Origin: a virus
Direction: 5' to 3' (one strand)
Length of the DNA stretch: 45,624 bases
Virus record (IMG/VR): IMGVR_UViG_3300009514_000043
Coordinates: 1-45,624 of that record
Shown here: positions 4,602-40,142 of the stretch, in pieces
How positions within the stretch are numbered: position 1 is the stretch's first letter
Layout: every line of letters begins with the position of its first letter
Notes under the pieces: model-generated
Database searches by the model: none
What the model was told of the DNA's origin: nothing
What the model saw: the letters and a program-made list of their open reading frames with translations, nothing else
Position numbers and translations under genes: made by a program

Positions 4602-7600
4602 CTAGAGCACGTCCGGTTCGTCGGTCGGAGCTACTCCAGCCGAAGGTTCAATCTGCTCGATGCCGATGGCGTCCGGGGCCGCCGCCAGCGTGGTCATGGC
4701 GTCCGGGTCCGGGTCCTCTCCAGCAGCAAGGGCGATGATGTCGTAGATGAAGGACGGCCCTGCCGGGACTACGATGGCCACCCCGCCCCCGTAAGAACGA
4801 GGCCCATCCGAGGGCTTGTTCGTCGCTGCCACCATGTCCGCCATCAGCCCGTCTGTACCGTCTGAGAACAGCATCAGCCCGCTGAACTCGGGCAGCAGGA
4901 AGGAGAAGGACAGGAGCGACTGGATCATCGCGTTGATGCGGCGAATGAGCTGCTGCAACTCCACGATCTGCGCTTGCAGGAACTCGATGTACTTCACGAT
5001 GACGTCCGCCATCGACTTGATGGCCTCTGCCAGCGCCTTGACCCAGTTCTCCAGCGCCTCAAGGAAGTCTTGCAGCTCGGGGAAGGCGTCGAACAGGCGC
5101 ATCGCAATCCACTCGCCGTCCTGTGGAGCCCGCGTGAACGCCGCGGTGGCCACCCGCAGCACCATGGCGGCCTGTGCGTACAACGCCCCTTCTTTCCAAT
5201 CCCGAAGCATGTGGCGGAGGTAAAAGGCACTGGTCCATGTCTCAGCAACAACGTTGCTCTTGGTGTAGTTGACCAGACGGCTCAGACCGCTGACGTACAC
5301 CGGGGTCATATCGCCTGAACTCGTCAGGCGCTTCTTCTTCTGTACTTCTTGGAGGTAGACTCGCCACTCCTCGGGGATGAGCAGCTTGCCGTCCTTGTCG
5401 ATGAACTGCTGGTAGATTCGCTTCAAGCTCTCGGGGGCCTTCTCCAGCAGTGCCCGGACCTTCTCTTTGTCCGACTCCTCATAGGTGATGTTCACCTTGC
5501 CGCCATCCCACATGGCGTACTCGCCGACGCGGCCCACGAGTGTGCCCTTATCCCCCGGAACCTCGTTGCCTGTATGGTCCGTGGATGTGTCAAGTTTCAC
5601 CCCGTAGAACAGCTCGTCGGCGTGATCCGCAGACATGCCCATCGAAAAGACGTTCGGGGCCACCCCGAACTCCTTGAACTTGGAGGCCTTACCTTTGGGG
5701 TCCAGAGCTGCCATGAGGGTGGGGTTCTCGGTAATCTTCGCGGCATCGTTCATTTCTTGGAGCCTTACACCCGCCCCCGCCTCCTGATTGTCCAGCAACA
5801 ACTCCCACGTCACCGTGCGCAAGGCCTCAGTGGCATCAACAATCGCGGCCTCCGCTTCAGGCATGGGTCCGGTACGCTCGTAGATGTCCTGTGCCATCTG
5901 ACGAACCTTGTTGTAGACCTCCGACCTCCAACTCACTGGGTCCACGCCCGGCTGCTCCAAGTTGTCCAGTCGGGGGTACATGATCCGCAGGATGTGGCGG
6001 GAGTCCTCCAATCCGGTGGGTTTGAGCGCGAACTGCTGCCCGGCCCACTTGCCCTCCCCGAACCCCTTGGCGACCGCCTCCGACTTGCCCTCCGTGATCT
6101 CCTCCAGCATGGGCATGTCCGACCGGCTCAAGATCAGGATGAGCAGGGCCGTCTCCAGCGCGTGCAGGTAGTCCTTGGTGTTGGCGTTGACGAAGGTGAT
6201 CTTCCGGGCAGCCGAGGGCATCCCAAGCCCCGCCTCACCGGCCTTCGACGCGATGAAGAAGGGCTGCCCCGACTTCTTGGCATTGGGCTCGGCCGCTTTC
6301 GACCTGAAGTCCCACTGAGGCACCAGCTTGCCTGTGGCGATCTCCTTGCCCGCTGACCAGACGCGCACGTAGTAGTGCGTCGCAGGCCCGTCGTCTTTGG
6401 CAGCGATTTGCCCCGTGGACTCCCTCTCAAAGCGGGCGGCGATGGGCATGTCGTCCAAGTGCAGCACTGCGCTATACTCACCTGCAAACCACTGGGCCAT
6501 CGTCACCCCGGACGTGATGAGGAAGGTCCGCTGGAGCCGGAACTTGCTGCCCTTGCCGTCGCCAGTCTCCCCCAGCGCACTTGGGTCATTCTTCTCCGTG
6601 GTGAGCAGCTCCAGCGGCACCACCTCGTTGGAGGCCGGGTCGAGCATCCCGAACACCTGACATGCCCCGTCCTTGGGAGCCCCGGTGGTGGTGTTGATCT
6701 GGTCGTTAAACAGGAACTTCGAGCCTTGGAACGAGAGCATCTCCGCCCCACCGTGCAGGACGATGGGCCGGTTGTCCGTGCTCAGCACCGGGCCATACTC
6801 CCGAGGCTGGGCCTTCTTGCTCTTGTCCCCATCCACGTCCTTCTTGTCCGTGTTCTGGATGACCCGGCTGTACTGGAGTTGAAGCCCCTTCTCCAACGTC
6901 GAGACGGTCACGAGGTAGCCGGATGGCCCCACGGTCGGGAACGGGTTGAGGGGGTGCTTCTGCGACGCAGGCTTGGTGATCCAAGTGACCCGGCACAGCG
7001 ACGGCGGGGAGGACCACGACCCCAGCGTGTCGATGAGGGGACCAAACTGGAAGGCGGTGCCTATCCCCACAGTGTCGGGGCCGTACAGAGTGTCGCGGAT
7101 GATCGGCACAGGCATCCGCGAGGTGTCCGGCCAGTAGGACAAGCCGAACATCTTGATGATGGTGATGATGAAGTTGATGAGGCGTTCAAGGTCGGTCGGG
7201 TCAACCGACAGGTAGCCGAAGAATCCGAGCACCTTCGACTTGCTCGACACATCAGGCCGAGTCGGGTCTGTCCGGTCCGTCAGTCGAGCGATCATCCGTC
7301 GCTCGTACTCGCTGAACCCGCCCCGCAGATCTTCGGGTGGCCACCCAAGGAGAGCCAAGTCTCCAGTGATGTGGATGCCGATCTGCGCGAGATCCTTCAG
7401 GATTGCGGTGATCTCGTCGAGGATGGCCTTGAGGAGTGCCGACAGCGGGTCGAGGTAACCCTTGACGAACGCCTTCACGAACTCCAAGGCGATGTTCACG
7501 ATCTCCAAGATGGTGATCAGGAACTCCGCGAAGTCGTTGACGGCATCGCGCACGTCTTCGAGGTAGTCAGGAATCGCGAAGCTGACTGTGCCCCACTGGC

Positions 7601-7619
7601 CTGTAACGTCGTCAGCCAT
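4602..7619 (-). CDS. Large putative virion structural protein (1005 residues)
   Basis: The ATG at 7619 follows a GGGGGAGG Shine-Dalgarno and overlaps the stop of the 84-residue gene (ATGA). Residues about 20-110 are amphipathic and hydrophobic helix (EFLITILEIVNIALEFVKAF, LDEITAILKDLAQIGIHI). The middle is mixed alpha/beta with no recognisable enzyme motif. Residues about 860-935 form another long helical run (DFLEALENWVKALAEAIKSM, IVELQQLIRRINAMIQSLL) followed by a Gly-rich strand segment (YGGGVAIVVPAGPSFIYDII). This layout, long helices at both ends with a GGG strand near the C-terminus, is what I associate with large structural proteins of big myoviruses, but I cannot name a family. It sits between the giant protein and the wedge genes, so a peripheral baseplate component is likely. 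Confidence 0.7.
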   Translation of the reverse strand: MADDVTGQWGTVSFAIPDYLEDVRDAVNDFAEFLITILEIVNIALEFVKAFVKGYLDPLSALLKAILDEITAILKDLAQIGIHITGDLALLGWPPEDLRGGFSEYERRMIARLTDRTDPTRPDVSSKSKVLGFFGYLSVDPTDLERLINFIITIIKMFGLSYWPDTSRMPVPIIRDTLYGPDTVGIGTAFQFGPLIDTLGSWSSPPSLCRVTWITKPASQKHPLNPFPTVGPSGYLVTVSTLEKGLQLQYSRVIQNTDKKDVDGDKSKKAQPREYGPVLSTDNRPIVLHGGAEMLSFQGSKFLFNDQINTTTGAPKDGACQVFGMLDPASNEVVPLELLTTEKNDPSALGETGDGKGSKFRLQRTFLITSGVTMAQWFAGEYSAVLHLDDMPIAARFERESTGQIAAKDDGPATHYYVRVWSAGKEIATGKLVPQWDFRSKAAEPNAKKSGQPFFIASKAGEAGLGMPSAARKITFVNANTKDYLHALETALLILILSRSDMPMLEEITEGKSEAVAKGFGEGKWAGQQFALKPTGLEDSRHILRIMYPRLDNLEQPGVDPVSWRSEVYNKVRQMAQDIYERTGPMPEAEAAIVDATEALRTVTWELLLDNQEAGAGVRLQEMNDAAKITENPTLMAALDPKGKASKFKEFGVAPNVFSMGMSADHADELFYGVKLDTSTDHTGNEVPGDKGTLVGRVGEYAMWDGGKVNITYEESDKEKVRALLEKAPESLKRIYQQFIDKDGKLLIPEEWRVYLQEVQKKKRLTSSGDMTPVYVSGLSRLVNYTKSNVVAETWTSAFYLRHMLRDWKEGALYAQAAMVLRVATAAFTRAPQDGEWIAMRLFDAFPELQDFLEALENWVKALAEAIKSMADVIVKYIEFLQAQIVELQQLIRRINAMIQSLLSFSFLLPEFSGLMLFSDGTDGLMADMVAATNKPSDGPRSYGGGVAIVVPAGPSFIYDIIALAAGEDPDPDAMTTLAAAPDAIGIEQIEPSAGVAPTDEPDVL

Positions 7620-7873
7620 CAGCTACCTCCCCCGTACTTGAGGCGAATGAGCTTCTCCTCCAGCAGCCGCGTCTCGGCCTGCTTCTGCCCCACCACCCCC
7701 TCCAGCAACTGGGACACCTTGGTCAGGTTGGCCGCCATGCGCAGGGCAAACTGCGGGGTCCGCGGGCCACCGCCGCCCATGTCCCCCCAGACCTTCGGGT
7801 CGATGCCTGCCGCCTTGAGACGTGCCGTCACCTGCTCCTCGGTCATTGGCTCAGTCTTCCGCTCGTCGCTCAC
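7619..7873 (-). CDS. Small uncharacterised protein (84 residues, GTG start)
   Basis: The start codon is GTG (7873-7871), and its GTGA context overlaps the TGA stop of the giant gene by 4 nt. An AAGGGG element lies 7 nt upstream. At the 3' end the TGA overlaps the ATG of the 1005-residue gene in the same way, so three genes are translationally coupled. The protein has an acidic N-terminus, a Gly-rich turn (DMGGGGPRTPQ) and a C-terminal helix with heptad-like leucines (LTKVSQLLEGVVGQKQAETR). This would suit a small adaptor or chaperone for a neighbouring large structural protein. No family is recognised. Confidence 0.65.
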   Translation of the reverse strand: MSDERKTEPMTEEQVTARLKAAGIDPKVWGDMGGGGPRTPQFALRMAANLTKVSQLLEGVVGQKQAETRLLEEKLIRLKYGGGS

Positions 7874-10800
7874 GTCTCAACCCCTTCCACCGTCTGCTCC
7901 AGCAATAACGTCCGCTTGCGCTGCTCCAGCTTCAACGGCAGCTCTGCATCGAACGCAGCCATCCGGGCCAGTGTCCCGATGTAGCGGTGCGTTCGATAGG
8001 CCAACCATGTGTACCGGATGGCCCGCAGCCGGTCGCGGGAGTCAAGAATCAGCCCCAAGTGGTCCGGCAGCACCGGACGTACTTCCGACCCGCCCGTCGC
8101 CGTGCTGGTGTAGGCCGTGTAGGGACCGTTCACCTCGGGGTACACCTCCGCCCCCGCCAAGACCCGCATGGCGAAGTTGTTGGCCGGGTCGGGCTCCAAG
8201 GAGTCGAGCTTGCGGTCGAGCACCCAGAACCGCCGGTCAAGCAGCGACAAGCAGTCGCTCGTGTTGATGAAGGGCGAATGGCTCACCTCGCCCACCAGCG
8301 TCGTCACCAGCCGGTTCGGGAACAACCCAAGCCCGGAGTCCGGGTCGAGTGGGTCACCAAGGTCTTCGACATGCTCCAAGTCCTGCCAGTCCCAGTAGAA
8401 CCCGCCCTTCTCGCCCTTGATGGCCCCTCGGAACATCTCGATGAGCGAGAGCATCCGCTCACGGATGGTCAGCACCGTGTCCACGATCTCCGCGCTGAAC
8501 ATCCCACTGGGCCGGATGATCCGGTAGCTGAATGGCCGCAGCGAGTGCTTGTCCGCCACTGCGTCGTTGGGGTCCTTGAACGTGCCGCCCACAGCCCTCC
8601 GCGTCGGGCGCAGGTCGTTCTGCCCCTCCGCCGTGGCCGGAGGCACGATGGCATCCACGTTGAGCGGGGAGACGCCCACGGTCGGGTAGATGGCGTACTG
8701 GATGGTCGTCCGAGCACCACCCATCACCACGTCGCTGCCATGTGAGCCAGCGAACAGGTGGGCCGGGTTCAACGTGAGGTTCGTCGCCTCCACGGACTCC
8801 ACCCGGTAGAAGCCCCGGTTGTCGTCAAGGCTGCTCACAGCACCCGCCACGTAGGGGCTCGGGGGCGGCCCAACACCCGCAGAGGTCCGAGTCGGGACGC
8901 TGCGGTCGCCCAGTGGCCGGAACCCACGCTCGTCCACCACGGGCAACATGCCCATCGGGTCAATGACCACGATGTCGCCCTTGCGCACGCCAAGCTCCAC
9001 GAAGTTCGGCGGGGTGGCCGAGTCGTCGTAGAGCTTGTTGGAGATGTCCGACCACGCCCCTGCGGCCACCACCTCGGGCACGTAGCCGCCGACCCAGTTC
9101 TGTGGGTCGGCATCGCTCTGGTCGGCGACCGTCTCGTGAACCACCCGGTCGGTGATGAGGTCGAGGAGCTGCTCGTTGCTCTGCTCGTGCGGGACCGGAG
9201 CCTGCCGGAGCCAAATCTCAAACCGCCGCTGACCGGCCTTCACCTCCGCTTCGGTCAGCGTGGCGAAGCCGGGGGCCTTGAGCTTCAACTGCGAGGCCGA
9301 CACCACCTCGGCGATTACGGCCTCCTCCAACACCACCCCGTCATCGTCGAGCAGCCGGAGGAAGTCGCCGGGGTTGATGTTCACGTCCTCCGAGTCGAAC
9401 GGGCCGAGGTTCGTGCCCGTGTGCAGCTTGCCGTCGTTGTCGCTCCACACCTCGGGAACGCGGGGGAACGGGGTGCCGACGTTCCAGTTCATCTGGAAGT
9501 CGAGAGCTGTCACCGTCCCGACCTGCTGCGGATTGCGGGTGTACTCGGTGATGCGCCCACGCCGGATCTCGTAGGCGTAACGCAACGGCTGGAAGGCGTC
9601 GTTGATGGTGCTCTGCGCCCCGTGCCACCGCCGGACTCGGCGGACCTCAAAGTGGACGTTCTCCTCCACGCCCACGTTGCGCATCCCGACCGTGCCGGGG
9701 CCGAGCGAGCGCGTGCGGTCCACCACCTTGGGGGTGCCGTTGAACTGCACCGGGAACCACGGCAGGGAGGGCTCCACGTACAGCCCGCCCGCCGCGTAGA
9801 AGGCGTCCCCACCGTCCTCGGTGCTCACCTCGGTCGAGGGGAGAAGACAGGCGACACCGTTGCCCGCCGGGTGGCCATTGGGGTTGTTGAGAGTGTCGCC
9901 CTGACCCACAGTCAGATGCAGGTGGATGACCTCGGGGACGTTGCTGTAGACCGGCACCGAGTTGGTCGGGTCGAACGTGTGGTTCAAGTGTGGGGTGGCC
10001 GGGACTACCCCCACCTCCCCAGCCACGGGGGGCACCACGGTGTCAATGTTGGCGATGGGCACCACCACGGCCCCGTGCGGGCTGGTGTACGTCAACCCGT
10101 GGAACCCGTAGGTCGCGTTGTCCGCCCCTACGACGCCGGGGTTGAGGTGGTAGCCCACTACAGAAGAATCGTCGGGCAGGTCGCCGTCACGGACAGCTAC
10201 GGTCAGGGTCGTGACGCCCTTGTTCGCCAAGGTGTTGTCGTGCCAGCCCATCTGCTTGCCGACCACCAAAGCGGGGGTGATCTCCACCGCGATGGCCGCC
10301 AAGCTCGCCCCGATGGCTGTGTCGTCCGCCCATCGCCAGACCCCAAAGGGACCGAGCGTGATGACGTTGCCCGCGACCCCCGTGTACTCGACGCTGAACA
10401 ACGCCTTCTGAAAGACAGCAGGGTTGGCGTCCGCCAAGTCGGTCGGCCTGATGGCGATGAACAACCTTCCGGTGGCCGGGAGCATGGAGGCGTCGTCCAC
10501 CGTGATCTGCTGCCCCAGCACATCGAGGAGGGTGACGCGGGGGAAGGGTGTTGTGATGAACCCGAGGCCGGTGCCCAGCACCGCGGTCTTGGTCACCTTC
10601 TTGTAGGCCTTGCCCACCTCGGGCTTGACCGCGTACCGCACGAGGTACGTCCCAGCCTTCTCCGTCGCGGAGTCGGGTAGACCAACAGCCGAGCGGTCCA
10701 CGTAGACCACATCGCCCTTCTGCACCTTCTCGATGTCCCCCGTTGCCACGGTGATCAGCGAGATGTGGTTGTTTCTTGCGAACCCATCGCCCGTCAGGAT

Positions 10801-35706: not shown

Positions 35707-36573
35707 CTAGGCGTTGATGAACGCCGACTGGGCCGACCCACCTGTCAGACCCCCGCCGGACTGGTTGATCGCGATGCCCGCATCCGCAGCGAACCGGATG
35801 GAGCCGAGCTGACCGATGGTTGGGTCGTTGCCTGTCGCGAGGAACTCACCGTACATCGTCGCGAAGTCATGAACGTCCGAGACGGTCACGTCGCCGGACT
35901 CCATGATCATGCCGCTGTCCTTCGCGAACGTGGCCGACCACGAAGTGAACCAGCAGGCTTCGTAGATGGTGATGATGGCCGAGTGCCCGCGGGGCTCGCC
36001 CGGAGCTTTACCCTTGCCACCTGAGCCCGTCCCCGTAACGGCGTTGCCACCAGGACCGAAGTCCGGCGTGACCTTCGGGTAGGTGATCTGCTTGACGCCG
36101 CCGTCGAAGGAGCCCGTGCCACCCTGATGGCCGGTGTTCGCCTTGCCAAGGTCGAGGTCCGCAAGGGACGAGAACACGAGCTGCTGCTCGATGTCGAACG
36201 GCCACTTGTGGTGCGCCAGCGACCGGACCGGACCGTCCACACCCGAGGCGTAGCCCGTGGCCTGCCACAGGTTGCACAGGTACAGGAGCGCCCGCTCGAA
36301 GGAGCCGGTGGTCGGCTCGGTGACGCTCGGCACCAGCTCGGCGACCTGATCGCCGAAGCCCACGCCGCGAACCGGCTCGACGGTCCGGCTCTGGCTCGGG
36401 TTGAAGCTGGAGACGACGCCCATCTGGTGCATCGCTGCGTTCGACCCGTAGTGCGGGGTCAGCAGCCGGACCTTCTGGCTCACCGCCGTCCGCGTGTTCG
36501 GAGAGGTGCCGAAGTCGTAGAGGTAAGAAGTACCTCCGACGCCGCCTTCGGGCTTGTTGTCCATGTTCGCCAT
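35707..36573 (-). CDS. Tail tube protein
   Basis: 288 residues, ATG at 36573 after GGAGG (6 nt spacing). The C-terminal third has the signature arrangement of myovirus tail tube proteins: IITIYEACWFTSWSATFAKD followed by SGMIMESGDVTVSDVHDFAT, a long strand pair that forms the inner tube barrel. The N-terminal part includes PFDIEQQLVFSSLADLDL. A Gly/Ser/Lys-rich loop (GTGSGGKGKAPGEPRG) near residue 190 probably faces outward. Order relative to chaperones and tape measure is standard. The expected neighbour, the sheath gene, is not directly upstream but about 5.7 kb away across an accessory island. A candidate promoter box lies 47 nt upstream. Confidence 0.78.
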   Translation of the reverse strand: MANMDNKPEGGVGGTSYLYDFGTSPNTRTAVSQKVRLLTPHYGSNAAMHQMGVVSSFNPSQSRTVEPVRGVGFGDQVAELVPSVTEPTTGSFERALLYLCNLWQATGYASGVDGPVRSLAHHKWPFDIEQQLVFSSLADLDLGKANTGHQGGTGSFDGGVKQITYPKVTPDFGPGGNAVTGTGSGGKGKAPGEPRGHSAIITIYEACWFTSWSATFAKDSGMIMESGDVTVSDVHDFATMYGEFLATGNDPTIGQLGSIRFAADAGIAINQSGGGLTGGSAQSAFINA

Positions 36574-36643: not shown

Positions 36644-36665
36644 AATCAAAATGGACTTGATTTTG
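36644..36665. promoter_or_regulatory. Imperfect palindrome upstream of the tandem-HTH gene (possible operator)
   Basis: AATCAA (36644-36649) is repeated inverted as TTGATT (36657-36662), and the overlapping CAAAAT (36647-36652) is repeated inverted as ATTTTG (36660-36665). It is an AT-rich island in a GC-rich gap, 21 nt before the HTH gene start, in the divergent region shared with the tube gene. An autoregulatory operator for the HTH protein is plausible but untested. Confidence 0.35.
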
Positions 36666-36686
36666 CGGCTGGAGTAGGCTTGCAGC

Positions 36687-37061
36687 ATGAACCAGCGGCT
36701 CACAGCAGAGCAGGCCCAGAGCATCCTGTACCGGGTTGCCGCGGGAGAGCCACAGAAGAAACTGGCCGCCGAGTTCAAGGTCCGCCCGAGCACCATCTCC
36801 AATCTCGTGCGCGGCAAATCATGGCCCAGCCTCGACCGACCGCCTCCGCCCGAGGTGTCCTTGCGGGGCTGCAAGCTCACCCCCGAGGACATCCCCGTCA
36901 TCCTCCTCCGGCTCGCCAACCGAGAGAAGGCGAAGGACGTGGCACGGGACTACGGGGTGACCCAGCAGACCATCGCCAACGTCGGACGACGCAAGACGTG
37001 GACGCACATCCCCCCGCCCGAGGTGCTCAAGCCTCCTCGCCGGAAGGTGTGGGAGGGCTAG
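36687..37061 (+). CDS. Small DNA-binding protein with two tandem helix-turn-helix repeats
   Basis: 124 residues. Two repeats of about 45 residues are visible: residues 5-50 (LTAEQAQSILYRVAAGEPQK ... KVRPSTISNLVRGKSW) and 64-109 (LTPEDIPVILLRLANREKAK ... GVTQQTIANVGRRKTW). Each has the form LTxEDIxxIxxRxAxGxxxxxxAxxYxVxxxTIxxIxxGKTW, a compact HTH. The same two repeats make up the C-terminal half of the neighbouring HNH endonuclease, so the proteins share ancestry. No nuclease motif is present here. It could be a stand-alone regulator, a specificity subunit or a truncated relative of the endonuclease. Its stop codon overlaps, within a CTAG, the stop of a fossil minus-strand gene end (37058-37127). 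Confidence 0.75.
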   Translation: MNQRLTAEQAQSILYRVAAGEPQKKLAAEFKVRPSTISNLVRGKSWPSLDRPPPPEVSLRGCKLTPEDIPVILLRLANREKAKDVARDYGVTQQTIANVGRRKTWTHIPPPEVLKPPRRKVWEG

Positions 37062-37127
37062 TAGGCGTTGAGCTTCCAGATGCGCTCGAACTCCTTCTGC
37101 GTTGCCATCACCGATACAGAACTTGCA
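37058..37127 (-). pseudogene. Remnant of a PLD-nuclease gene 3' end
   Basis: On the minus strand this segment first encodes CKFCIGDG, matching the HHKFCVGDG of the intact PLD gene (37785-38255); 18 of 21 bases agree with 37945-37965. After a frame change it encodes ATQKEFERIWKLNAY and a TAG stop. That second part matches the PLD C-terminal helix FQREFNSYW (Q-K/R-E-F-x-x-I/Y-W), and its codons are nearly all G/C-ending, as in real genes here. About 35 codons between the two pieces are missing. The stop shares CTAG with the HTH gene stop, the same convergent arrangement as at 39381-39384. It is best read as the original end of the PLD gene, stranded by the HNH insertion. Confidence 0.55.
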
Positions 37128-37156
37128 AACACCCATTGAGAGGCTACAATCAGTCA

Positions 37157-37831
37157 ATGAACGAAGTTCAGGTTTACGCGCTGGTTGACCACAGCCCTCA
37201 TCCGAAAGGATGCCAGCTATGGCAGGGGTCCATCAGTGAAGCTCGCGGAGGGTATGGCACTGCCTACTTCAACAAGAAGATGTGGCGAGCCCACCGCCTG
37301 ATCTGGATGCTGAGGCATGGCCCAATCCCCCCCGGCATCTACATCCTACATTCCTGCGACAATCCCCCATGCGTCAACCTGAACCACCTGCGACCGGGAA
37401 CCCAGTCAGACAACATGAAGGACATGCACCGCCGGGGTCGCCACCCTTCGCCCGGAGCGGAACCCGGTGAGAAACACCCGATGGCAAAACTAACAGATGA
37501 ACAAGTACGGGAGATCCACCGTGCCTGCACGGCGGGGGCTTCACAACAAAAGCTGGCAAAGAAGTTCGGCGTGACTCTCCACACGATCTCATATATCGCA
37601 AGCGGACGTACTTGGCAGCACCTCAAACTGGAATCCGTACCCCGCAGGGTTGGAGCAAAACGGGCAGGTGCAAAGCTAGTCGAGGCAGATATCCCCCTGA
37701 TCTGCCAACGTGCTGCTCTGGGGGAGGCTTTGGCAGCTATCGCCCGTGACTACAAAGTAGGGCGCACCACGATCTACGAAATCGTCAGGGGGACGAAGTG
37801 GGCTCACGTCCCTCGCCCCAGTAGGAGTTGA
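37157..37831 (+). CDS. HNH homing-type endonuclease with two C-terminal HTH repeats
   Basis: 224 residues from the ATG at 37157. The frame is open further upstream, but that part is the shadow of the HTH gene and tube region. Residues 25-90 are an HNH_3-type nuclease: LHSCDNPPCVNLNHLRPGTQ with His65, Cys67, Cys72 and His77, followed by DNMKDM. Residues 111-157 (LTDEQVREIHRACTAGASQQ ...) and 173-219 (LVEADIPLICQRAALGEALA ...) are two HTH repeats for site recognition. Third codon positions are visibly less GC-rich than in neighbours, consistent with recent arrival. No strong Shine-Dalgarno is seen. The 3' end overlaps the convergent PLD gene by 47 bp. It is free-standing, with no intron or intein signature at the site. 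Confidence 0.85.
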   Translation: MNEVQVYALVDHSPHPKGCQLWQGSISEARGGYGTAYFNKKMWRAHRLIWMLRHGPIPPGIYILHSCDNPPCVNLNHLRPGTQSDNMKDMHRRGRHPSPGAEPGEKHPMAKLTDEQVREIHRACTAGASQQKLAKKFGVTLHTISYIASGRTWQHLKLESVPRRVGAKRAGAKLVEADIPLICQRAALGEALAAIARDYKVGRTTIYEIVRGTKWAHVPRPSRS

Positions 37832-38255
37832 ATTCACGCTGGAATGCCTCCACGGCGTACTTGAGCCGGATGATGACGAAGTTCTCTGCGTTCCGCTGAT
37901 CTGCGCTCTTTGACCAATTGAAGGACCCAGTAATGATGGCATCACCATCCCCTACACAGAACTTGTGGTGGAAACTCCCACCCCCACTCCCTTGGATCAG
38001 ACGAACAGCCACGCCACGAGCCTGCAACTTCTCGTCATCTGCCCATCGTCCCGATGCCTGCACGGCGTCCATCAGCACCCGGACCTTGACCCCTCGCTCG
38101 TGCGCACGAGCAACCGCCTCGGCGATGCCGTTGTGGGTGAACGAGTAGACCGCGATGTCGAGGGTCTTCTCGCAGTGGTCGATGAACCCAACCACCTGAG
38201 CGGCGGCCCCTTGGCGGGGCGAGAAGTACGTCGAGACGTAGGGCTTGCGTGGCAT
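37785..38255 (-). CDS. Phospholipase D-fold nuclease, single HKD motif
   Basis: 156 residues, ATG at 38255 after AGGAGG (5 nt spacing). The HKD motif is complete: HHKFCVGDGDAIITGSFNWS, fitting HxK-x4-D-x6-GSxN. Upstream segments (TLDIAVYSFTHNGIAEAVAR, GVKVRVLMDAVQASGRWADD) are typical of the Nuc-type bacterial PLD endonucleases, which have one HKD per chain and act as dimers. No signal peptide is seen, so the protein is probably cytoplasmic. The last roughly 15 residues are read antisense to the end of the HNH gene and look aberrant (EGREPTSSP), while a more normal PLD tail survives as a remnant at 37058-37127. Possible roles are host DNA degradation or removal of competing DNA; not decidable here. 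Confidence 0.85.
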   Translation of the reverse strand: MPRKPYVSTYFSPRQGAAAQVVGFIDHCEKTLDIAVYSFTHNGIAEAVARAHERGVKVRVLMDAVQASGRWADDEKLQARGVAVRLIQGSGGGSFHHKFCVGDGDAIITGSFNWSKSADQRNAENFVIIRLKYAVEAFQREFNSYWGEGREPTSSP

Positions 38256-38280
38256 GAGAACCTCCTGCCAAGAACTCTAC

Positions 38281-38292
38281 CCGAGGTAGGTT
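38281..38292 (-). promoter_or_regulatory. Weak candidate promoter box upstream of the PLD gene
   Basis: Minus-strand AACCTACCTCGG, 26 nt before the PLD start. It resembles CCTATACCTCGG upstream of the gp25-like gene but lacks two central bases. It lies in the 88 nt divergent gap between the PLD gene and the acidic protein gene. It is the weakest member of the set. Confidence 0.2.
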
Positions 38293-38343
38293 CATCCCGT
38301 GCGGGCACGGGTAGACGGGGCAACAGCCACCGGGAGGACTGAG

Positions 38344-39384
38344 ATGGCCATCAACGCACGCACCTTCGAGATTCTCTACATCGTCCGCCAGCGGGCCATG
38401 CTCGACCTGCCCACCAAGCTGGAGGACTTCAGCGAGTTCATCGCAGCTCGCCGCAAGGACGCCCCGGACATCTACTACCGGGCGTACATCGCCCCGTCCG
38501 CCCTCGTCCCCCTGCTCCACCGGATGACCACGGGGGAAGGGTTGCTCACCTTCGGCGGGCACAGCCAAGACTGCGAGTACGAGTTCACCCCGCGAGGGTC
38601 GCAGATGGCCGACCTGCTGGTGGACCTCGACGCCTGCACCACTCGGTTCCTTGAGAACTACAAGGAGGAGATCTGCCTCGCCGTGCTTCAGCAGCGGCAG
38701 CGCCTCGGGCAAGGGCCGGTGAACCCCCGTGAGGTGGCAGCCATCGCCAACATCTCGCTCGATTCCGCCCGCCGGGGGCTGGAAGCTCTCGCCAGCGGGA
38801 ACCGTGGTGTGGTGGAGGACCGCAGCGAGCGCACTCCCACCTACGCCATCGAGGCCGCAACTCCCGTCGAGGAGGATGAAGACGAAGGGGGCGTCACCGA
38901 GGCCGACATCGAGGCAGCGGCCCGCATCCCCCTCGATGAGAACGAGGACCCCATCAGGGCCGCCCTGCGTGACCTTGAGAACGAGGACGATGCGTGGGCC
39001 ACTGCTGGCCCGCCTCCGCCCGCTGCGGACGAAGACGAGGAGCTGGAGCTGCCACTGGCCCTCGGCCAGATCCTCGCCGACGACGGACCAGACGAGGAGC
39101 CTCCCCCGAAGTGGTCGGGGGACCCGTTCGCGTTCGCCCCGCAGGGGGTCGAGTACGAGGAGCACGAGGAGGACCGGGCCGAGGAGGCCCTTCGCCAGCT
39201 CGACAAGATGCCGGAAGACGACTACTGCTGGGAGAACGTCCCCGCCGAGACTCGCGAGGGGATCATCATCCGGGCGAAGGCCGCCGGGATGCCCCTCAAC
39301 AAGTTCCTGTTCCTGCTGAACCAGCTTCACGAAGCGCAGGTGCGAGCTGCCCTGTTCGGCGAGATGCCAGACCCGCTGTTCTAG
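38344..39384 (+). CDS. Acidic protein with winged-helix-like segment (346 residues)
   Basis: The ATG at 38344 is chosen because GGGAGG lies 6 nt upstream; an earlier in-frame start has no ribosome site. Residues 1-120 are helical with aromatic clusters (FEILYIVRQRAMLDLPTKLE). Residues 122-170 (VNPREVAAIANISLDSARRG ... SGNRGVVEDRSERTPTYAI) resemble a winged helix: helix-turn-helix, then a beta wing. Residues 175-290 are extremely acidic (EEDEDEGG, ADEDEELELPLALGQ, EEHEEDRAEE). The C-terminus is helical (MPLNKFLFLLNQLHEAQVRA). An acidic DNA-binding adaptor or DNA mimic is possible, but no family is recognised. Its stop shares CTAG with the convergent neighbour. Confidence 0.72.
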   Translation: MAINARTFEILYIVRQRAMLDLPTKLEDFSEFIAARRKDAPDIYYRAYIAPSALVPLLHRMTTGEGLLTFGGHSQDCEYEFTPRGSQMADLLVDLDACTTRFLENYKEEICLAVLQQRQRLGQGPVNPREVAAIANISLDSARRGLEALASGNRGVVEDRSERTPTYAIEAATPVEEDEDEGGVTEADIEAAARIPLDENEDPIRAALRDLENEDDAWATAGPPPPAADEDEELELPLALGQILADDGPDEEPPPKWSGDPFAFAPQGVEYEEHEEDRAEEALRQLDKMPEDDYCWENVPAETREGIIIRAKAAGMPLNKFLFLLNQLHEAQVRAALFGEMPDPLF

Positions 39385-40142
39385 TGGCCGTAGGCCCCGC
39401 CGGTCTGGCTCTGCTCCTTGCCGTTCCACTTGTAGGCGGAGGAGTAGCTGGTCAGGTTGACGTAGGCCTTGCCGTTGTACTCCTTGAGCTTCTTGCGCAG
39501 AGGCGGCCCGACGAACTTGTTGGCGACCGGCATGTAGTATTCGGTCGGCTCACCCCGGCCCCGTGTTATTTGCTTGTCGATCTTGCGGAGTGCGATGGTC
39601 GTCGCCGTGGTCTTGACCACTTGGTAGTAGTCGAGGTTCGTCTGGTCGTAACCCCACTTGGAGTAGAAGATGTCGCCGACGATGACCGCGGAAGCGACCT
39701 TCATCACCCGTGGCGACTTGCTCCCGCCGAACTGCTGGAAGTCGTAGGGCTCGACGAGCAGCTTGCCATACCGACCGAACTGGACGATGACCCGCGGCTC
39801 CTCGTAGGCACCCGGCCCGAGCTGGTCGAGCATGGCCGCACTCGGCGTGCCCATCGTCTCCATGCCGAGGACCACCCCCTCGACGCCAGCAGGCACCTTC
39901 ACCGCCCGGCCCTTGTCGTTGTCGAACAAGGTGCCGAACATCAGCACGACCTTCTCCCCCTTGCGAGGGAGTGCCGCTGCAAGGAACCGCATGGCCAGCT
40001 TATCGATGGCCGAGGCGATGCGCTCGGGCACGTACCGGGGCGGCTCCGCCGCCATGCGAAGCAACGGCAGCAGGAGGGGCCGCAATGGTGGGTGGTCCGC
40101 GGCCAGCTTCTTGAGTTCCTGCCGCAATGGTGTCGTGCTCAT
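39381..40142 (-). CDS. Conserved-type phage protein with WGYDQTN motif (253 residues)
   Basis: ATG at 40142 with GGAGG 5 nt upstream. Around residues 155-185 is VGDIFYSKWGYDQTNLDYYQ followed by V and short strands (TIALRKID). I have the impression that a WGY[DE]QTN...FYQV phrase recurs in phage and bacterial proteins of unknown function, where it forms a small beta barrel; no function is established to my knowledge. The N-terminal 60 residues are helical and basic, and the middle contains a strand-rich unit (VVLMFGTLF, EEPRVIVQFGRYGKLLVEPY). The C-terminus is Lys/Tyr-rich (KYNGKAYVNLTSYSSAYKW-like). It is convergent with the acidic protein gene, their stops overlapping at CTAG, so no terminator fits between them. 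Confidence 0.7.
   Translation of the reverse strand: MSTTPLRQELKKLAADHPPLRPLLLPLLRMAAEPPRYVPERIASAIDKLAMRFLAAALPRKGEKVVLMFGTLFDNDKGRAVKVPAGVEGVVLGMETMGTPSAAMLDQLGPGAYEEPRVIVQFGRYGKLLVEPYDFQQFGGSKSPRVMKVASAVIVGDIFYSKWGYDQTNLDYYQVVKTTATTIALRKIDKQITRGRGEPTEYYMPVANKFVGPPLRKKLKEYNGKAYVNLTSYSSAYKWNGKEQSQTGGAYGH

Follow-up and report, generated by a model that had tools for sequence, protein, structure and literature searches.

A phage HNH endonuclease gene that probably entered a PLD nuclease gene and brought a replacement for its 3' end

An HNH endonuclease gene of a phage has probably invaded a resident PLD nuclease gene in its 3' part, as a mobile unit that brings with it a replacement PLD 3' end. 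The window (the whole stretch of DNA analysed, 45,624 bases) is an assembled contig, an IMG/VR viral record, in which a capsid-like gene, an HTH gene, a stretch with no intact gene, the HNH gene, the PLD gene and a gene of 361 aa follow one another from left to right (Table 1). Because relatives without the HNH gene exist and the anatomy recurs in a second phage, the locus looks like the phage counterpart of the end-replacing homing elements of yeast. A broader proposal, with about an even chance of being correct, is that phages carry homing elements that consist of an endonuclease gene and a substitute 3' end for the gene being invaded, and that do not depend on splicing, the means by which inteins and introns keep an invaded gene alive. 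Such elements would be HNH-based and would have evolved independently of both the WHO elements of yeast and the mobile ORFs of fungal mitochondria; each event would keep the target intact, swap its C-terminus and strand the old one.

Table 1. Features of the HNH/PLD locus and its surroundings, in window coordinates.
Feature	Positions	Strand	Remarks
Capsid-like gene	35707-36573	-	Synteny anchor (86% L012, 73% L025); function putative
HTH gene, 124 aa, two HTH repeats	36687-37061	+	68% identical to HTH of L012 (L001)
Displaced PLD 3' end (fossil), QKEFERIWKLNAY and stop	37058-37099	-	41/42 versus L013 PLD 3' end
Displaced piece of PLD HKD motif, CKFCIGDG	37105-37126	-	18/22 versus active PLD at 37945
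Candidate sigma70-like promoter, TTGCAA-N16-TACAAT, at fossil/HNH junction	37123-37150	+	Consensus match only
HNH endonuclease gene	37157-37831	+	HNH_3 domain and two HTH repeats
PLD nuclease gene, HKD and GSFNW motifs intact	37785-38255	-	PLDc_2, Nuc 1byr
Neighbour gene, 346 aa from ATG at 38344, longest ORF 361 aa	38344-39384	+	

The HNH protein matches Pfam HNH_3 (E=2.7e-11) and phrog_59 (E=3.4e-36); its C-terminus, apart from the HNH nuclease domain, is a double HTH. It is 51% identical to the HNH protein of the second phage, L025 (the same locus as L002). The product of the HTH gene is homologous to the HNH C-termini (35-37% identity), a relationship missed by the preliminary description of this DNA. 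That description had put forward the GC3 of the HNH gene and its flanks as a comparison, and the values do differ, at 0.64 in the HNH gene versus 0.86-0.87 in the HTH, capsid-like and 361-aa genes; the HNH genes of the window and L025 span 0.60-0.64. The window has no Rfam match at all, and the HNH gene accordingly does not lie in a self-splicing intron. At syntenic loci, the HNH gene is present in the window and L025 and absent from L012 (the same locus as L001), L013 and L014 (cited as a pair), L035, L057 and L209. The window HNH gene is best read as a free-standing gene for a homing endonuclease.

The HNH-less relatives appear to preserve the order of genes before the insertion. In L012 and L013/L014, the PLD gene is directly convergent with the HTH gene and their stops share CTAG, as the preliminary description had predicted beforehand for the ancestral locus. 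The PLD proteins of these relatives run to a stop after EFDRIWELNA in L012 and after QKEFERIWKLNAY (EFERIWKLNAY) in L013/L014; no HNH-less PLD gene was found to end as that of the window does, and the EFERIW-type tail that had been expected is present. In L035, L057 and L209, the PLD gene is located directly before the capsid-like gene, again without an HNH gene. A displaced tail is found at both HNH-bearing PLD loci (2/2) and at none of about ten distinct HNH-less loci with a full PLD gene. The gene at 38344-39384 is kept beside the locus in L010-L014. Searches of named phages at the DNA level gave no match, nor did protein scans of viral contigs with the HTH product and 39381-40142, and a search with the window's capsid-like gene gave no family match.

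Judged by its sequence, the segment at 37058-37099 on the minus strand is the displaced 3' end of a PLD gene, and the fossil is real. It is identical to the L013 PLD 3' end at 41 of 42 positions (maximum of 28/42 in 200 shuffles, window plus L013), in agreement with the earlier claim that the HNH insertion displaced the end of the PLD gene and left a fossil tail behind; the local alignment with L013 lengthens to 61/63, crossing the 3' end and stop of the HTH gene. CTAG at 37058-37061 is common to the fossil stop and the HTH stop, and the same design recurs at 39381-39384, both as originally described. The piece of the fossil that had been assigned to the PLD HKD region also holds up: it matches the active PLD gene at 18/22, the next best site in the window reaches 15/22, and a score of 18 was attained by 0/500 shuffles of the fossil region. 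Between the fossil tail and the HKD piece, 34 codons (~100 nt) are missing, so that the internal loss of about 100 bases proposed earlier is right in size, but the gap may be a repair or recombination junction rather than the product of later deletion or decay. The window fossil and the tail of the active PLD gene have the same residue at five of eight comparable positions.

A replicate of this anatomy, which the preliminary description had missed, occurs in L025, a contig from another metagenome. Its order is a VWA gene, a complete PLD gene, the HNH gene, a 34-codon PLD tail fossil and the capsid-like gene, so that there, as in the window, the endonuclease gene is located between a full-length PLD gene and a PLD 3' fragment. 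The L025 fossil is an open PLD tail (terminating in DAENFVVLRLKYIVEEFQSEFNDLWEKNAPE and a stop) that ends ~65 bp before the capsid-like gene, and it aligns better with the tails of other phages than with the tail of the L025 PLD gene itself; because the two L025 tails are only 66% identical in protein, the fossil is not a fresh or recent copy of its neighbour. The HNH/PLD 3' junction of the window aligns with that of L025 at a score of 19.3, versus a null maximum of 10.6, and for this reason the HNH/PLD 3' unit is probably common to both. Since the fossils differ in context (beside the HTH gene on CTAG in the window, before the capsid-like gene in L025), the two cases are read as separate insertions or transfers. 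They are the two known instances of the displaced-tail anatomy: among 57 HNH loci, no convincing tail duplication was found other than that of L002, the other high scorers of the scan being GC-rich shadow frames or tandem HNH genes. Two-domain PLD matches in bacterial loci proved to be ordinary two-domain proteins, and PLD matches in L003 and L064 were set aside as too distant. The start of the L025 fossil, KFVLG, was rejected as proof that the insertion site is the same; the match by eye is 9/18 bases and did not rise above background in a base scan, so that it is suggestive at most.

The window PLD protein (PLDc_2, E=4.1e-28; Nuc, PDB 1byr, E=5e-16) carries the HxK(x)4D and GSxN motifs in alignment, and comparison with its relatives makes it clear that its very end has been replaced. 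As the preliminary description had noted, the PLD gene now ends antisense to the last 47 bp of the HNH gene with an aberrant C-terminus, GEGREPTSSP. On the authors' reading of the alignment, this odd ending would have arisen because, compared with the HNH/PLD junction of the L025 type, a gap of ~18 nt puts HNH antisense codons in the PLD frame. Over residues 1-60, the nucleotide identity of the window PLD gene is 0.80 to both L012 and L013 (0.73 between L012 and L013); the values for residues 61-138 are 0.60 and 0.64, respectively (0.69 between L012 and L013). The best breakpoint, near residue 62, has a p of 0.0134 (0.0016-0.024 when the ranges are truncated), with controls that are not significant, and in trees built with FastTree the window PLD branch has a length of 0.07-0.11 for residues 1-60 versus 0.44-0.48 for residues 61-146. 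An earlier breakpoint scan, on a slightly different alignment, placed the best break at residue 139 (tail only) and gave none in L025. These comparisons suggest a native 5' part and, starting near residue 62, a 3' part with greater divergence (p about 0.01). Low GC3 runs similar to the HNH genes occur at codons 67-123 of the window PLD gene (p 0.01) and codons 89-103 of that of L025 (p 0.002), and the HNH-less L012 also has one (codons 73-90); with a Fisher p of 0.33 in the window and the run in L012, the contrast in GC3 between the N- and C-terminal parts was rejected as clean proof of chimerism. Derivation of the window's 3' half from a donor like L002, first suggested by eye, was likewise abandoned, since the trees give it no support and the 3' halves of the window and L025 are not mutual closest relatives. 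The co-conversion of the PLD gene proposed earlier thus stands in part, with the drop in identity in its favour and the L002-like donor withdrawn; a co-converted tract longer than the very end is likely, but not proven.

In the history proposed here, the HNH endonuclease would cut the PLD gene of a phage that lacks the unit, near the sequence of the HKD active site, and the break would be repaired off an HNH-bearing genome that pairs on one side through the PLD body. Such repair-based homing would copy in both the HNH gene and the PLD 3' end of the donor. The PLD gene would remain intact as a fusion of its native 5' part with a 3' part supplied by the element, an allele that should be immune to further cutting, and the old native 3' end would be stranded beyond the HNH gene.

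An unlikely alternative to this history consists of two unrelated steps, in which deletion of the VWA gene and most of the PLD gene first leaves a PLD tail beside the HTH gene, and an HNH and PLD pair arrives later by modular recombination between that tail and the 361-aa gene. Exactly such a remnant, another feature missed by the preliminary description, is present in L011, where a PLD tail (TFHAEFERLWKLNA and a stop, 5465-5520) stands beside the HTH gene without an HNH gene or a PLD body, and no other PLD gene was found in the 133-kb record; because L011 has this remnant without an HNH gene, deletion alone can leave a PLD tail. The VWA gene (about 890 aa), which adjoins the PLD gene in L012, L013 and L025, is absent beside the locus both in L011 and in the window (38256-38343), and the HNH/PLD pair is found as a unit in L025. 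The same L025, however, retains its VWA gene and still repeats the anatomy, and the window fossil retains an HKD piece as well as the tail. Moreover, the start and ribosome-site region of the window PLD gene are of the L012/L013 type, and because of this and the 0.80 identity over residues 1-60, a native PLD 5' end was probably still in place, which counts against the two-step history.

The duplicated PLD 3' ends of both phages could also be local tandem copies that each phage made of its own gene end, on either side of the HNH gene, but this is very improbable, and the divergence of the two tails within each phage (66% aa identity in L025, five of eight residues in the window) already disfavours it, as does the near-identity of the window fossil (41/42) to the native tail of another phage. 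Equally little is to be expected of a chimera of two related phages made in metagenome assembly: this viral record is indeed a contig built by assembly, but L025, from a different metagenome, repeats the anatomy, and a promoter-like sequence of the HNH gene crosses the junction. Compatible with the insertion of an HNH unit is the notion that the tail DNA is no passive fossil, having been retained for a function of the HTH gene as its 3' end, terminator or recombination anchor. A 63-bp island (window 37037-37099, L013 5481-5543) that covers the end of the HTH gene and the PLD tail has 61/63 identity, the whole HTH gene being only 72.6% identical, and L011 keeps its PLD tail too. This notion is nevertheless improbable: no hairpin resembling a terminator was found in this stretch, and high GC3 together with a conserved peptide could have kept the DNA identity high until recently. 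The island may reflect either recombination or constraint.

Insertion of an HNH unit with a replacement PLD 3' end has its closest parallel in the WHO elements at FBA1 of yeast, in which experiments have connected the same anatomy with an endonuclease that cuts its target (Coughlan et al. 2020, PMC7282813). There, the endonuclease gene is located between a full-length target whose 3' end has been replaced and a 3' fragment left over from the old gene, it may face the target gene, and splicing is absent (PMC7282813). WHO proteins derive from inteins, carry zinc fingers and have aldolase as their target (PMC7282813), whereas the enzyme of the present locus combines an HNH domain with HTH repeats and has a PLD target in a phage. 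A difference in history between the PLD 3' and 5' parts is suggested in the window (p about 0.01) and was not detected in L025. The sequence of the HNH enzyme is not that of a WHO protein, and the resemblance is a likeness of mechanism, not membership. In the mitochondrial atp6, atp9, cox2 and nad3 genes of Glomus, a hybrid gene with a foreign 3' end is likewise accompanied by an endonuclease ORF and the displaced native 3' end, and for such fungal mobile ORFs the displaced ends show 91-98% identity to a relative, the inserted ends 64-81% (PMC3630166); a mobile ORF with a foreign C-terminus has also been described in Allomyces atp6 (Paquin et al. 1994, as cited in PMC3630166). The fungal ORFs encode LAGLIDADG or GIY-YIG enzymes in an organelle, whereas the phage gene encodes an HNH enzyme and is convergent with its target. 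The seg and mob genes of T4-type phages resemble it as sporadic, free-standing endonuclease genes, HNH in the case of mob, with co-conversion of flanks, but they are described as insertions between genes or splitting genes, and a displaced 3' end with a carried replacement is absent from the passages searched of the T4-type review (PMC2988022). No phage precedent for tail-replacing homing was found in the partial coverage of the literature searched. The window PLD protein itself resembles the single-domain nuclease Nuc (155 aa, one HKD motif, a GSFN motif), from which it differs in being phage-borne, in adjoining a capsid-like gene and in the C-terminus altered by the HNH overlap. If the proposal is true of phages, with their different nuclease, end replacement would be a general strategy, chimeric phage genes with swapped C-termini would be accounted for, and an endonuclease gene between two ends of one gene would be a searchable genome signature.

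Several other features of these loci may be mentioned. TANNNT-N6-RTG occurs directly 5' of the HNH and HTH starts in every copy checked (window 37145-37159 and 36675-36689; L025; L011-L013), which suggests leaderless transcripts; in the window, TACAAT-N6-ATG at the promoter candidate could be a leaderless HNH start. An inverted repeat, AATCAA-N7-TTGATT (window 36644-36662, upstream of the HTH gene), is conserved in L011 and L012; located between the HTH and capsid-like genes, which are divergent, it could serve the HTH protein as an operator. In L010, the HTH slot is occupied by a gene (5098-5898, minus strand) that by eye is endonuclease-VII-like and ends in RRKVWEEV, resembling the KVWE C-termini of HTH genes at the same site; it is possibly a second tail hybrid or possibly the bearer of a conserved C-terminal peptide. 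In L051, the capsid-like gene (6001-8290) is broken by two insertions, a group I intron (7611-7872, 77 bits) and a 1.2-kb insertion with an ORF that is LAGLIDADG-like by eye.
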